41,106 bases of DNA from Syntrophobacterales bacterium. GTDB lineage: Bacteria; Desulfobacterota; Desulfobaccia; Desulfobaccales; 0-14-0-80-60-11. The translations under genes were made by a program, and so were the position numbers. Positions 30,199-35,861 of this stretch are shown in pieces; position 1 is the first letter of the stretch; each line of letters opens with the position of its first letter. Location: assembly GCA_020060385.1 (NCBI GenBank), contig JAGVAH010000154.1, forward strand, positions 1-41,106, given 5' to 3'. The notes below the pieces were generated by a model that worked only from the letters and a program-made list of their open reading frames with translations, was not told where the DNA came from and ran no database searches.

Positions 30199-30744
30199 GG
30201 AAAGGTTACCTCACCATAGAATTTTATGGGCAAGCGCCTGGGATTGCAAGGGTTTTGTGGGAGGAAGAGGGGACGGGCGAGAAGCAGCCCTACCTCTCCG
30301 GGCCAGCCGCCAGGGCCCGGAGGCTGCTGTGGCCCAGGCCGGGCCCTTTAAGAGATGCTCAAGGGGCCAAGGTGAAGTCTACGGTGACCTCAAAGCTCAC
30401 CGCCTTCTGGGTTAAAAACTGCATGCCTTCGCCCAAACCGGAATTTTCAAAGACGGACGAAAGTTAGAGAGGCCATGGGGGACTTTAACCCCTACATGAA
30501 AATGCCCCAGGCCCAGGTCTTATACCAGGTTGCCATCAAAGAAGTATTTTTGAGCTGTCCTTCTGAACGGAGCGGAGCGGAGTGAAGAATCTCGTATTTT
30601 GAGATTCTTCGCTGCGCTCAGAATGACAAAATTACTCGTTTGACCGCAACTTGTTATAAAATTGTTATTCTGGGAAAATCTGCTATCATCCAGGGCCATC
30701 ATGGAATTAATCCCGGAGGTGAGCGGACGGAGAGGAGAAGAAAG
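30199..30744. other. 546-bp intergenic region, repeats and a possible gene remnant
   Basis: The region separates the GGDEF gene (-) from the lipoprotein (+). It contains a dispersed palindrome (30557-30627), one end of a second repeat (TTATACCAGGTTGCC at about 30521-30535, like one arm of the element at 33255-33390), and a short minus-strand frame ending at TGA 30359-30361 (MQFLTQKAVSFEVTVDFTL) that may be the tail of a degraded gene. A candidate promoter (TTGACC 30640-30645, 17 bp, TGTTAT 30663-30668) precedes the lipoprotein gene. Confidence 0.5.
30557..30627. repeat. GTCA-TTCTGA-type dispersed palindrome, copy 2
   Basis: GTCCTTCTGAACGGAGCGG opens and GAATGAC closes the copy, with a perfect GAAGAATCTC/GAGATTCTTC hairpin inside. 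The other copies are at 301-360 and 33066-33157. The three copies differ mainly in the hairpin centre. Confidence 0.75.
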
Positions 30745-31353
30745 ATGCTGCCAAAGGTGATAAACCACAGAGCATTATTGATCCTGATTGCCCTTTTGGC
30801 CGGTTCCTGCCTGCTGGGAGGCTGCGCCTCCCTATGCACCAAGCGGCTGGCCCTTTACCGGGACACCCCGGAAAAGGCCTCAGCGCCGGCCAATACGGCC
30901 CTGTTGATTACTGACCCGAATTTAGCCGCCGCCGTGCTGCCCGGGGCCGGCAGCTATCAGGGGGCTGGAAGTCAGTGGATGTCCGAGGATAAGGTCCAGG
31001 AAGGCGACGTGTACCGGTTGTCCATGGATCGGGTGGACGACAAACCGGTGTACCAGGGTCTATGCATGGATACCACTCCCACCTATGCCTGTGAAGTGCG
31101 GCCGGGGTCCCGGCAGGTGTCCCTGAAACTGGATATGTTCGGTTCCTGGGGACAGGAAAGGGTCAGGGAAGTGGCCCGGCTGACCCTGGAGCCGGGAAAG
31201 TGCTATTTTCTCCGGCCTGACTGGGAGGAATTGAGAAACAGGCGTCTCCTCCTCAAGGTCGAGCCCCTGCCTCAGGCCTATACCCCGGAGTTGCGGTCCC
31301 GGGTGGTCAATTGGGAGCGGGGGCATGAAAAAGGCAGGGACCTGGTGGATTAA
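30745..31353 (+). CDS. Lipoprotein of unknown function
   Basis: A 202-residue protein with a lipobox LGGC (Cys26 or so) and a short hydrophobic core. The rest (~30-200) shows no domain I recognise; it contains paired cysteines (GLCMDTTPTYACEV) and a mixed beta region with VSLKLDMFGSWG. ATG 30745 follows GGAGAGGAGAAG, a good ribosome-binding site. A strong terminator follows the stop, so it is probably monocistronic. Envelope location is likely; function is unknown. Confidence 0.7.
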   Translation: MLPKVINHRALLILIALLAGSCLLGGCASLCTKRLALYRDTPEKASAPANTALLITDPNLAAAVLPGAGSYQGAGSQWMSEDKVQEGDVYRLSMDRVDDKPVYQGLCMDTTPTYACEVRPGSRQVSLKLDMFGSWGQERVREVARLTLEPGKCYFLRPDWEELRNRRLLLKVEPLPQAYTPELRSRVVNWERGHEKGRDLVD

Positions 31354-31506: not shown

Positions 31507-31989
31507 ATGGCCCAAAAGATTCTGTTAGCTCTGGATAGTTCGGAAGGGGCCTGGCGCGCCGTGGAATATGTGGCCCGGACCTTTGGACAGACCCCGGGGG
31601 TGGAAGTCACCCTGCTTAATATCCTCTCTGGTCTGCCCCCGGCCTTCTGGGATGACGGCCACGTCTTGCAGGACAAAGAGCGGGAGGCCCGGCAGCGGCT
31701 GGTGGACCAGTGGCAGAAGGACCAGGAAAAGGGCTGGCAGGGGCTGGTGGATAAGGCCAAAGATACCCTCGTGGCCGCAGGCATCCCCGTCGCGGCCGTG
31801 GCTGCCAAGTTCAAGCCCAAATACTATGACGTGGCGGAAGATATCGTCAACTCGGCGGTGGATGAGGGCTGCTCCACCATCGTCATGGGTCGCCGGGGCC
31901 TGGGCAAGGCCAAGGCCCTGCTCCTGGGCAGCGTCACCTCCAAAGTGGTGCATAACGCCAAGGGTGTGGCCGTAACCATTGTGGAGTAA
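31507..31989 (+). CDS. Universal stress protein (UspA family)
   Basis: A 160-residue cytoplasmic UspA-domain protein. It starts MAQKILLALDSSEGAWRAVEYV, the usual beta1-alpha1, and ends with the ATP-binding signature G-x2-G-x8-9-G-S (GRRGLGKAKALLLGSVTSKVV, near residues 127-147), so an ATP-binding type is expected. ATG 31507 follows AAAGGAG at ideal distance; in-frame GTG 31468 and ATG 31477 would add an unusual MIKMSH leader. Such proteins respond to starvation or stress by unknown mechanisms. The TAA stop lies inside the first unit of a heptamer palindrome. Confidence 0.9.
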   Translation: MAQKILLALDSSEGAWRAVEYVARTFGQTPGVEVTLLNILSGLPPAFWDDGHVLQDKEREARQRLVDQWQKDQEKGWQGLVDKAKDTLVAAGIPVAAVAAKFKPKYYDVAEDIVNSAVDEGCSTIVMGRRGLGKAKALLLGSVTSKVVHNAKGVAVTIVE

Positions 31990-32064: not shown

Positions 32065-32931
32065 TTACCGCTTGAAGCTCATCTCGATGTAGTTGTCGTT
32101 AAGGATGCGGGCCAGGTTGAATTCCCGATCCACTTCCTCCGGGGAGATCAAGATACCTTTATCCGTCAGTTCCTGGGCTGCCAAATCCGGGGCATGGCCG
32201 GCAAAGAGGCGGCGCAGCACCTGGTGCATGGTGGCCGAGGAGACGTTGCCCCTCTCCGGCATCCCCCGGGGGACGTCGTTGTGGATGCGTTGGAAAAAGA
32301 AGTCCACCTGGTAATCCCCGGCCTGGCTGGAGAACCGCACCACCTTTTCCTCTTCTGCGCCCTCATTGAGGATTTCCTGGGGCACATAGCGGTTTAAGAT
32401 CCGCTCCGTCTGGTTTTGTTGGGCCAGATAGAGGATGGAGACCGCATCGTAGTGGTCCAGGGGGCGCTGCTCCTCCTGCTCCACCCTGGTGGTGCCGAAC
32501 TTGCGGAAACGGTACTCCGGGGCGTTGGGGTGGCGGTTGACCACCAGGTCCACGCCCATGATGCCCACGGAACAGGAGAGGTTTAGCTGGTTCGGGTCTT
32601 CCATGGGGACCCCGTAAGTGCGCATTTTTTCCAGGATGAGGCGGTGGCGATGGCCGCAAAGCAGGCGGCGGATCAGGGCCTGCATCAGGTTGGGGCTGGC
32701 CTGGTACTTGGGGGAGAGGGCCAGGGAAGTCAGGGTTTCCACTGTCATTTCCACGAAATAGTTGTCAGTGCCGAGGAGCAGGTTGAGTTTGCCGGGGGTG
32801 TGGCCGTCCGGCCCGTAACGCCGGCAGATTTCCTTCCAATCATGCTCCTTCAAGAGTCCGAGGACGGTTATCAGATCGTAAGAATCGAGATCACGACCTT
32901 CCATCTTCTCCACCAGGCATTTTGCCGGCAT
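32065..32931 (-). CDS. Unrecognised 288-residue protein with an internal duplication
   Basis: No family is recognised. The protein has two homologous halves, residues ~13-118 and ~156-273. Each opens L-D-x-Y-D followed by an RY (RDLDSYD...CRRYG; RPLDHYD...LNRYV) and has a later M-x-x-[AV]-x-[IL]-R-R-L-x-[AC]-G-H block ending in G[IV]. A D-N-Y-[FI]-[VE]-E-M-like motif occurs at ~56-62 and again at the very C-terminus (~279-284). No signal peptide or membrane segment is visible, so it is probably cytoplasmic. The start at 32931 has AGGAGG eight bases upstream; an in-frame ATG at 33021 would add 30 residues without such support. It converges on the UspA gene. Confidence 0.7.
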   Translation of the reverse strand: MPAKCLVEKMEGRDLDSYDLITVLGLLKEHDWKEICRRYGPDGHTPGKLNLLLGTDNYFVEMTVETLTSLALSPKYQASPNLMQALIRRLLCGHRHRLILEKMRTYGVPMEDPNQLNLSCSVGIMGVDLVVNRHPNAPEYRFRKFGTTRVEQEEQRPLDHYDAVSILYLAQQNQTERILNRYVPQEILNEGAEEEKVVRFSSQAGDYQVDFFFQRIHNDVPRGMPERGNVSSATMHQVLRRLFAGHAPDLAAQELTDKGILISPEEVDREFNLARILNDNYIEMSFKR

Positions 32932-33065
32932 AACCCCGCCCTCCTTTCCTTTTGGCCATAAAATAATCACTGCCACGGGGGCTGGCAATCCGTGGGCAGC
33001 CCTAAATTCAATACGGTTCACTTAAGCGTTAAAGGAATCGGTGGGCAGTGCCCACCCTACGTTAT

Positions 33066-33665: not shown

Positions 33666-34193
33666 ATGGAAATTAAGGTGGGGCAGTCGGTCATGGAGTT
33701 GGTGGAAGGGGATATCACCCGGCAGGATACGGAAGCCATCGTCAACGCCGCCAACACTTCCCTGTTGGGGGGCGGCGGGGTGGACGGGGCCATCCACCGG
33801 GCCGGCGGGCCGAAGATCCTGGAGGAGTGCCGCCAGATCGGCGGCTGCCCCACCGGCGAGGCCCGGATCACCACGGGGGGCAATCTGCCGGCCAGGTACG
33901 TCATCCATACCGTGGGCCCGGTCTACCGGGATGGGCTGCACCGGGAGCCGGAGCTGCTGGCCTCCTGCTACCGGGAGAGCCTGAAGCTGGCCACGGCCAA
34001 GGGCCTCAAAAGCGTGGCCTTTCCCTCCATCTCCACCGGGGCCTATGGCTATCCCCTGGCGGAGGCGGCTATCATCGCCCTAAGGACCGTGAAGACCTAC
34101 CTGCTGGAGCATCCGGAGATCGAGAGGGTGCGCTTCGTGCTCTTCGGCCAGGCCGCGTACGCGGCCTACGCGGCCGCATTAAAGGAATTGTAG
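33666..34193 (+). CDS. Macrodomain protein (ADP-ribose / O-acetyl-ADP-ribose hydrolase)
   Basis: A 175-residue single macrodomain of MacroD/YmdB type, which removes ADP-ribose from modified proteins or deacetylates O-acetyl-ADP-ribose. The substrate-contacting blocks are visible: GDITRQDTEAIVNAANTSLL (~20-39), the GGGGVDGAIHRAGG loop (~40-52), CPTGEARITTGG (~64-76), and HTVGPVY; the C-terminal AFPSISTGAYGYP loop is the usual phosphate-binding segment. GGAGG precedes ATG 33666 at good spacing. It converges on the Lcl-methyltransferase gene; no partner ADP-ribosyltransferase was found here. Confidence 0.93.
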   Translation: MEIKVGQSVMELVEGDITRQDTEAIVNAANTSLLGGGGVDGAIHRAGGPKILEECRQIGGCPTGEARITTGGNLPARYVIHTVGPVYRDGLHREPELLASCYRESLKLATAKGLKSVAFPSISTGAYGYPLAEAAIIALRTVKTYLLEHPEIERVRFVLFGQAAYAAYAAALKEL

Positions 34194-34240: not shown

Positions 34241-35377
34241 TCAAAATGCACTCCGGTACAAAAAGCAGCGGTTATGGCGGAAGGGCCCCCAGTCCAGGCG
34301 GGTATAGCCCAGCCGGGACAGATTATGCAAATAGCGGCCCCGGAATTGCGGCACCAGGTTGGCCGTGCCGGTGGCGCATCCGCCGTCCCCCACGTCCAGG
34401 TAGTATTCCCAGCCCCGGGCCTGGAGGAGTTCCTGGGGGGCCCGGGAACCCAGGGGCGGCCAGCACCAGAAGATGAGCTCCGGCTGAAACGCGGCCACTG
34501 CCTCCAGGTGGCTGGCCCGCTGCACCGGCACCCCGTAAGGCTCGCCGGGCGCGGCCTCCAGGTCGGTGGCCACCACTGGCAAGCCCCTAGCCGCTAAGGC
34601 CCCGGCCATAAATCCCTCACCCGCGCCCACTTCCAGCACCCGTTTCACCCCCAAGTGCCGGCAGAGCCTGATCAAGGCCCGAAGAAATTCCGAGGTGGGG
34701 AGAAAATAGAGGTGTTTCCTTTCAGTAAGGGCCACTTCCGAGAAAAGCCCGCCCTCCTGGAGAAACCCTTCCACTTCCCCAAGGCTAGGCAGCCGCCGCC
34801 GGCCGTGGCTGAAAAGCATTTCCCTACCTTTGGCAATTAATTCCCGGGACGGGGAAAAGTCAGGCAGCTTTTTTACCTCGCCGGCCACGGCCCGGATAAA
34901 GGCGCGCTGCTCCCGGTTCTGGACCTGGACGGAGCCGGGGAAGAAGAGCACCCCGTAAGCGCCCCCCGCCGGACTGTCAGTGGCGCTCCAACAAAAGGGC
35001 TGGCGGCTGTCGAAAACAGGATCGATATAAAGACCCACGGGGCTCTTGGTTCCAGTGAAAAGACTGATTAATTCGGGGAGGGTGGGGAGGCGCCAATCCC
35101 GGCGGCCGCCCCAGGCCCGGCGGTTCAGCTCTGCCACATAAGTGGAAGCCGCTCCCTGGCTCAAGGGTTGAGGGGAGCCGGAGCGCTGCCAGTAAAGGCC
35201 CGTCTCCTGGTCCTGGGCCATTTCCGTTCCCAGGGGCAGGAAACGGCTGGGGGCCCCGCTCCCGCTGGCAGGTATGCCGGTGGCGGCAGGGGGCCAAAGG
35301 CGCTGGCCACAAAAGGCGCAATACGGGTTCGACTGGAGAGCGCGCCGGTGGCAACTGAGGCAACAAATAGGGGCCAC
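34241..35377 (-). CDS. Zinc ribbon-Lcl_C (DUF1566)-methyltransferase fusion
   Basis: A 378-residue three-part protein. Residues ~5-28 form a zinc ribbon (CCLSCHRR...YCAFCGQRL). Residues ~47-165 match the Lcl_C/DUF1566 domain by pattern: DQETGLYWQR, AWGGRRDWRLPTLPEL, CWSATDSPAGG and FIRAVAGE. Residues ~225-375 look like a SAM-dependent methyltransferase, with motif I VLEVGAGEGFMAGAL and motif II VVATDLEA. DUF1566 alone is common, often in exported proteins; joined to a zinc ribbon and methyltransferase it is, as far as I know, unusual. No signal peptide is seen, so it is probably cytoplasmic. A role in modifying an RNA or protein target is possible; not known. Confidence 0.72.
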   Translation of the reverse strand: MAPICCLSCHRRALQSNPYCAFCGQRLWPPAATGIPASGSGAPSRFLPLGTEMAQDQETGLYWQRSGSPQPLSQGAASTYVAELNRRAWGGRRDWRLPTLPELISLFTGTKSPVGLYIDPVFDSRQPFCWSATDSPAGGAYGVLFFPGSVQVQNREQRAFIRAVAGEVKKLPDFSPSRELIAKGREMLFSHGRRRLPSLGEVEGFLQEGGLFSEVALTERKHLYFLPTSEFLRALIRLCRHLGVKRVLEVGAGEGFMAGALAARGLPVVATDLEAAPGEPYGVPVQRASHLEAVAAFQPELIFWCWPPLGSRAPQELLQARGWEYYLDVGDGGCATGTANLVPQFRGRYLHNLSRLGYTRLDWGPFRHNRCFLYRSAF

Positions 35378-35393: not shown

Positions 35394-35426
35394 TAAAAAA
35401 AGGCCCCACCCAGACAGGTGGGGCCT
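35394..35426 (-). terminator. Intrinsic terminator of the thioredoxin-like gene
   Basis: On the minus strand, a stem AGGCCCCACC/GGTGGGGCCT (35417-35426 with 35401-35410, six-base loop) is followed by seven T (35395-35401 in complement). It lies 13 bp downstream of the stop at 35439 and 17 bp upstream of the next minus-strand gene, so the two are separate transcripts. Confidence 0.92.
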
Positions 35427-35438
35427 CAATGGCATATG

Positions 35439-35861
35439 TTAGCGGGCTTCTTCGGACTCGGCCCGGCCTTCTAATTCGCCGATATAGTTTTCTATCCATT
35501 CTTCGATGAGATAGACCCGGCCCAGCTTCTTGTCGCTCCGGGGGAAGACCTCCAGCGGCGCCCGGTCCCCCTTTTTCGCATAGCAGCAGAGGGCAGGAAT
35601 GGTCTTGCCGAAATAATCCTTATAATCGGATCCCCGGACCTCACCGAAGATGGGACGGTATTCGGAGGCAGGTCCGCTGGAAGCTTTGTGATATTGACGG
35701 AAGGGATCCGCCACGTCCCCTATGTCAATAGCTGCGGTTTCTAGGCCCTTGGACTCCAGGCTTTTCAAAAGATTCATGACATTGTCATTGTCACACTTAT
35801 ATTTGTCGTCAGGTTTGTGCTTGCTGCTGTAATAAAATTCTACGTAGTTAAGCCGCGCCAT
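35439..35861 (-). CDS. Thioredoxin-like protein without CxxC, function unknown
   Basis: A 140-residue cytoplasmic protein with no family recognised. By eye it suits a thioredoxin-like fold: strand VEFYYSS (~7-13), helix NVMNLLKSLESKG (~27-39), strand ETAAIDIGD (~41-49), an insertion with a Tyr/Asp-rich segment (~54-85), a TIPALCCY segment with the typical cis-Pro (~86-93), strand PLEVFP (~101-106) and a final helix. The CxxC redox motif is absent; Cys92-Cys93 are adjacent. It has its own promoter (35923-35952), a strong Shine-Dalgarno (GGGAGGAGG) before ATG 35861 and its own terminator, so it is a well-expressed single gene. Confidence 0.6.
   Translation of the reverse strand: MARLNYVEFYYSSKHKPDDKYKCDNDNVMNLLKSLESKGLETAAIDIGDVADPFRQYHKASSGPASEYRPIFGEVRGSDYKDYFGKTIPALCCYAKKGDRAPLEVFPRSDKKLGRVYLIEEWIENYIGELEGRAESEEAR

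Follow-up and report, generated by a model that had tools for sequence, protein, structure and literature searches.

One gene in the window (the whole analysed stretch of 41,106 nucleotides) encodes a zinc ribbon, an Lcl_C (DUF1566) domain, a short linker and a methyltransferase-type C-terminal module, joined in that order in a single protein (Table 1). This architecture was recognized in the sequence-only reading of the DNA and is confirmed by profile comparisons, by five orthologues and by the selection that acts on them. The novelty lies in the combination of Lcl_C with a methyltransferase-type module whose family has no name; each part taken by itself is known or has homologues of a known kind. 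The fusion is real and clean, but it is narrow, being confined to one of the genera sampled, and it is dispensable in at least one species. The protein looks cytoplasmic, as had been suggested, with no signal peptide or membrane segment seen by simple hydropathy. We give an even chance to the reading that the protein is a SAM-dependent methyltransferase of the cytosol and that a recognition module attached to it aims or gates its activity. Judged by title and abstract, none of the four papers that name both DUF1566 and methyltransferase appears to deal with such a fusion, and the architecture was not found described.

Table 1. Features of the fusion gene and its immediate surroundings (positions in the window).
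Feature	Positions	Strand	Remarks
Fusion gene, 378 aa	34241..35377	(-)	GTG start; stop 34241-34243; orthologues in five congeneric species
Zinc ribbon C6-x2-C9-x10-C20-x2-C23 (aa 6-23)	35309..35362	(-)	Cysteines invariant in five orthologues; Pfam ribbon models sub-threshold
Lcl_C/DUF1566 domain (aa 53-164)	34886..35221	(-)	PF07603, E 1.2e-17, exceeds the gathering cut-off
Class I methyltransferase-type module (aa ~185-378)	34244..34825	(-)	Paralogue of the stand-alone 'WPPPG' family
Motif I VLEVGAGEGF (aa 247-256), putative SAM loop	34610..34639	(-)	Kept in fused and stand-alone proteins
Asp272, acid ending putative second strand	34562..34564	(-)	Invariant in fused, stand-alone and distant members
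W306-P307-P308, end of putative fourth strand	34454..34462	(-)	Invariant in fused, stand-alone and distant members
Convergent macrodomain gene	33666..34193	(+)	PF01661, E 2.2e-48; occurs without the fusion in a related genus
140-aa conserved protein, upstream flank	35439..35861	(-)	Synteny; not a shown partner
Intrinsic terminator of the upstream gene	35400..35427	(-)	Ends about 20-22 nt before the fusion start codon

The full-length fusion is present in five species of one genus, at 69-76% identity, and in no other sampled genus. A pattern-based search of contigs from 84,980 species, in which absence elsewhere does not amount to proof, returned a single public MAG as a close relative, and this belongs to the same genus (Deltaproteobacteria bacterium WY2.bin14) and appears to be one of the five. 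No relative of the whole fusion was found in the viral contigs, phages and plasmids searched. Between species, pN/pS is 0.34 for the ribbon, 0.29 for Lcl_C and 0.26 for the methyltransferase core, which is the best-conserved portion of the protein (mean identity 81%). The first linker has a pN/pS of 1.05, indicating neutral drift and no purifying selection. The low values in three domains and a value near 1 in the linker suggest folded, used domains on flexible joints. Since the architecture recurs in five species with these per-domain ratios, it is not due to chance. The majority of the genomes are draft assemblies, which would favor a chimeric contig, a wrong frame or a chance ORF as the source of the fusion, but the junctions are identical in five genomes and purifying selection acts at the codon level, and such an artefact is extremely improbable. 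The start codon call is supported by the conservation of an ATG or GTG and of the N-terminus across all orthologues.

The gene can also be lost, as seen in G003, a sixth species of the genus, where a remnant (L036 2119-2440, G003:C135) retains only the ribbon and part of Lcl_C. Here Lcl_C carries a frameshift and the methyltransferase part has been removed by a deletion that reaches the macrodomain gene. G002 is likewise without the fusion, in an assembly that is just 81% complete.

The N-terminal ribbon consists of two conserved CX2C knuckles (CX2C-X10-CX2C), and among 20,000 shuffles of the protein just 13 contain such a pattern at any position. No Pfam zinc-ribbon model scores above its cut-off, the best being DZR_2 with 20.9 bits versus 27 (E 3.2e-4, in an orthologue). 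A search for a zinc ribbon with Lcl_C in other proteins gave candidates whose match starts near the ribbon, and these proved to be a kinase-Lcl_C protein or Lcl_C repeats, with no ribbon; one further candidate, G399, gave no readable frame.

The C-terminal module does not pass any curated methyltransferase model, with best scores of 15.7 bits versus 27 in Pfam and 22.3 versus 243 in NCBIfam. Profile-profile comparison (hhalign), with real methyltransferases taken from the same genomes, matches the module to Methyltransf_23 with 96% probability (pairwise E 2e-9) and to PCMT with 87%, versus 0.7% for a Rossmann NAD control (short-chain dehydrogenases, SDR). In many genomes a profile of the module's family also finds ordinary methyltransferases, with the match at motif I. 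The two marks of a class I SAM-methyltransferase, motif I (consensus hhE/DxGxGxG) and the acidic residue that ends strand 2 (D272), are both present, though motif I reads GAAEG in two orthologues, with one glycine changed to alanine. The WPP at the motif IV position is not among the well-known catalytic loops.

An AlphaFold2 model of the module alone, built from two sequences, is of low confidence (pLDDT 52, pTM 0.48) and has strands and helices in the order of a class I methyltransferase. The best PDB matches of this low-confidence model are nearly all SAM methyltransferases (COMT, HemK, Rv0187 and others), at Foldseek TM-scores of about 0.4 and VIA-align Z below 8, values at which a class I fold, Rossmann-like and seven-stranded, is supported, not proven. 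Like the class I methyltransferases Methyltransf_23, PCMT and the COMT-like enzymes, the module has motif I, the acid after strand 2 and the predicted element order; unlike them, it is recognizable in its second half within its own family only, and it lies below all curated cut-offs. Of the SAM-binding domain that had been proposed from motif I, the methyltransferase-type character is supported by the motif, D272, the profiles and the weak model, although no curated model passes, and SAM binding itself is inferred.

A stand-alone relative of the module, about 220-240 residues long, is found in nearly every genome of the order. This 'WPPPG' family has no name at the curated cut-offs of Pfam and NCBIfam, and the fusion points to an unnamed, probable methyltransferase family that is kept in nearly all genomes of one order. 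The stand-alone copy of the window genome (L002, G000:C79:12017-12688) is 34% identical to the module. Compared as families, the fused module and the stand-alone proteins match with an hhalign probability of 99.5% (E 4e-22), and their homology extends over almost the full length of the stand-alone protein and nearly all of residues 185-378 of the fusion. Unlike the fusion, the stand-alone proteins have neither the ribbon nor Lcl_C. Distant members occur outside the order, in G137 and G165 (another family of the phylum) and in G052 (a third family). The aligned members share an E..A..G loop, an aspartate some 20 residues later and an invariant W-P-P, while GE-GGG in the stand-alone family corresponds to GD-GG in the fused copies. 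In the tree the fused copies fall outside the stand-alone clade (support 98/96), suggesting an old split or fast divergence and not a recent copy made within the genome. On these alignments, the module is a diverged paralogue of a methyltransferase-like family. The genes flanking the stand-alone copies include no constant partner and are variable housekeeping genes (pst, glmM, coaX, mla).

The Lcl_C domain of the fusion scores 64.7 bits with PF07603, for which the cut-off is 34.9; an AlphaFold2 model of the full-length fusion from two sequences reaches a pLDDT of 34. In Legionella Lcl, the region of this domain is C-type-lectin-like, forms trimers, and lies within the part that binds sulphated glycans or glycosaminoglycans (PMC11162425). 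The fusion shares the Pfam domain with this protein, but Legionella Lcl is an exported, collagen-stalked adhesin, whereas the fusion is cytoplasmic and carries a methyltransferase-type module. The premise that Lcl_C normally occurs alone or in exported proteins fails, since within the same phylum the domain is often found on cytoplasmic Ser/Thr kinases and also on caspase-like proteases.

The Lcl_C sequences nearest to that of the fusion, whose domain content was checked with Pfam on a subset, belong to kinase-Lcl_C, caspase-Lcl_C and short stand-alone proteins. In nine loci, a protein kinase at the N-terminus precedes Lcl_C (L094, L098, L103, L105, L106, L109, L110, L112 and L115). In several others a caspase-like protease takes the place of the kinase, and at least one of these proteins bears an apparent signal peptide. 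Some ten more are short and contain hardly anything apart from the domain. Lcl_C proteins with apparent signal peptides, some of them congeneric, score lower against the domain of the fusion. The Lcl_C tree is too weak to name a donor, and the fusion is not placed firmly beside any one type. Like the kinase and caspase proteins, the fusion combines an enzyme-type module with a single Lcl_C; unlike them, it has a different enzyme, an Lcl_C in mid-protein and not at the C-terminus, and a ribbon. Because Lcl_C is already found on kinases and caspase-like proteases, the fusion adds a further type of enzyme to those joined to this sensor-like module. Elsewhere, C-type-lectin-like domains on kinases and effectors have been proposed to be ligand-binding or sensor modules (PMC7517822; PMC10907252). 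Lcl_C, best known from an adhesin, is now seen on kinases, caspase-like proteases and a probable methyltransferase. If it is a ligand-binding switch, its enzyme fusions would give a direct route to the ligand.

Fusions of a Ser/Thr kinase to Lcl_C occur widely in the phylum and have apparently been little described. The caspase-like proteins with a C-terminal Lcl_C include L088, L095 and L101, with Peptidase_C14 in L088 and L101.

Across the genus, the gene order is priA, hisI, the 140-residue protein, the fusion, the macrodomain gene and a gene for a 318-residue protein. In G013, which represents another genus of the same family, the order is identical, with no fusion between the terminator of the 140-residue gene and the macrodomain gene, and G008 is likewise without the fusion at that site. 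It is therefore most likely, from the comparison of these loci, that the fusion was gained or built in the ancestor of the genus and that its neighbours are older; loss in the other genera is a less economical alternative. The sequence-only reading had remarked that the gene converges on a macrodomain gene. The convergence is real, but the macrodomain gene was rejected as a functional partner, as it stands in the same order without the fusion in the related genus (G013). The syntenic block contains four conserved proteins, the 140-residue one among them, that carry no functional annotation and have no significant Pfam match (35439-35861, 32065-33021, 31525-31953 and 30640-31353).

The terminator upstream of the fusion is strong; every orthologue has it, and so do two genomes that lack the fusion. 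The scanned stretch has no sigma-70-like promoter on the strand of the fusion, and a Shine-Dalgarno sequence is not evident. Given the terminator and the lack of these signals, expression would have to come from read-through or from a promoter of a type that the scan does not recognise. Occlusion of the start codon by the terminator hairpin was considered and rejected, since it appears in a single folding of the window sequence only and is not conserved.

In the reading that we favor, a methyltransferase with an attached recognition module, the C-terminal half would be a duplicated and diverged copy of the order-wide stand-alone methyltransferase. Lcl_C would serve either for binding, with a ligand, a protein surface or a glycan as its target, or for assembling an oligomer, and the N-terminal ribbon would be a docking site for a partner or would give stability to the tip of the protein; a targeting role for the ribbon is a guess. 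Against this stand the sub-cut-off models, the weak structure scores, the GAAEG variant, the atypical WPP and the broken gene in one species, and no ligand, substrate or partner is evident. A more specific form, which we regard as possible but rather unlikely, is that the protein is a ligand-gated methyltransferase with its ribbon docking on the target. It would then be the first case of an Lcl_C controlling an intracellular methyltransferase, and a sense-and-methylate device in one protein.

The chief rival, tentative in its turn and to be given a minor share of belief, is an ordinary methyltransferase whose substrate is fixed, be it a small molecule, an RNA or a protein. Lcl_C would then be a passive trimeriser or stabiliser and the ribbon structural, with no sensing, and the fusion would be a form of the stand-alone enzyme peculiar to this lineage. 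The stand-alone family, lacking Lcl_C and constant neighbours in almost all genomes of the order, is what a generalist or housekeeping enzyme would look like, and Legionella Lcl does trimerise through this region (PMC11162425). Lcl_C is, however, conserved nearly as strongly as the enzyme core in the five species, which is weak evidence against a mere trimeriser, for which laxer conservation is expected. A dead enzyme is less likely and on balance improbable. In that case the protein would be a methyltransferase that has degenerated, whether it still binds SAM or binds nothing, and would act as a sensor or scaffold, as could be suspected from the relaxed motif I in two species, from the change of GE-GGG to GD-GG and from the identity among fused copies, which at 70-76% is below that of the nearest neighbours (77-95%), the gene evolving faster than most flanking genes. 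Yet the methyltransferase core is the part of the protein under the strongest constraint (mean identity and pN/pS given above). Alanine at this place of motif I also occurs in active enzymes such as FtsJ, which counts against degeneration.

A conflict or defence effector, in which Lcl_C would sense an invader and the methyltransferase would modify a host or invader target, is less likely than the fixed-substrate enzyme, and we regard it as distinctly improbable. For C-type-lectin-like domains that share multidomain proteins with kinases, caspase-like domains and NTPases, a role in sensing invasion has been proposed (PMC10907252; PMC7517822), the phylum has Lcl_C fusions to caspases and kinases, and the gene has been lost in one species. 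On the other hand, the locus keeps a stable, syntenic place throughout the genus, flanked by priA and hisI and with no defence genes, and the flanking genes scanned gave no match to defence models. A PADLOC match to the MADS component mad2 is confined to a stretch of 50 residues at motif I (E 2.5e-5); as it is not full-length and no mad gene was seen among the flanking genes scanned, it does not make the protein a member. The idea of an undescribed modification system is not borne out at this locus, as no system is visible, the flanks keep their order without the fusion, and the PADLOC match is limited to motif I.

Unlike the conflict systems in which C-type-lectin sensors are diversified by diversity-generating retroelements (DGRs), the fusion has no hypervariable binding domain and its genome no DGR reverse transcriptase (RT), the pN/pS of Lcl_C between species being inconsistent with hypervariation. 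A DGR origin of the fusion was rejected, because the single RT of the genome (L197, G000:C4) carries a motif of the group II intron type (QGGVVSP) and its surroundings have no similarity to the fusion gene. A stop codon interrupts this RT.
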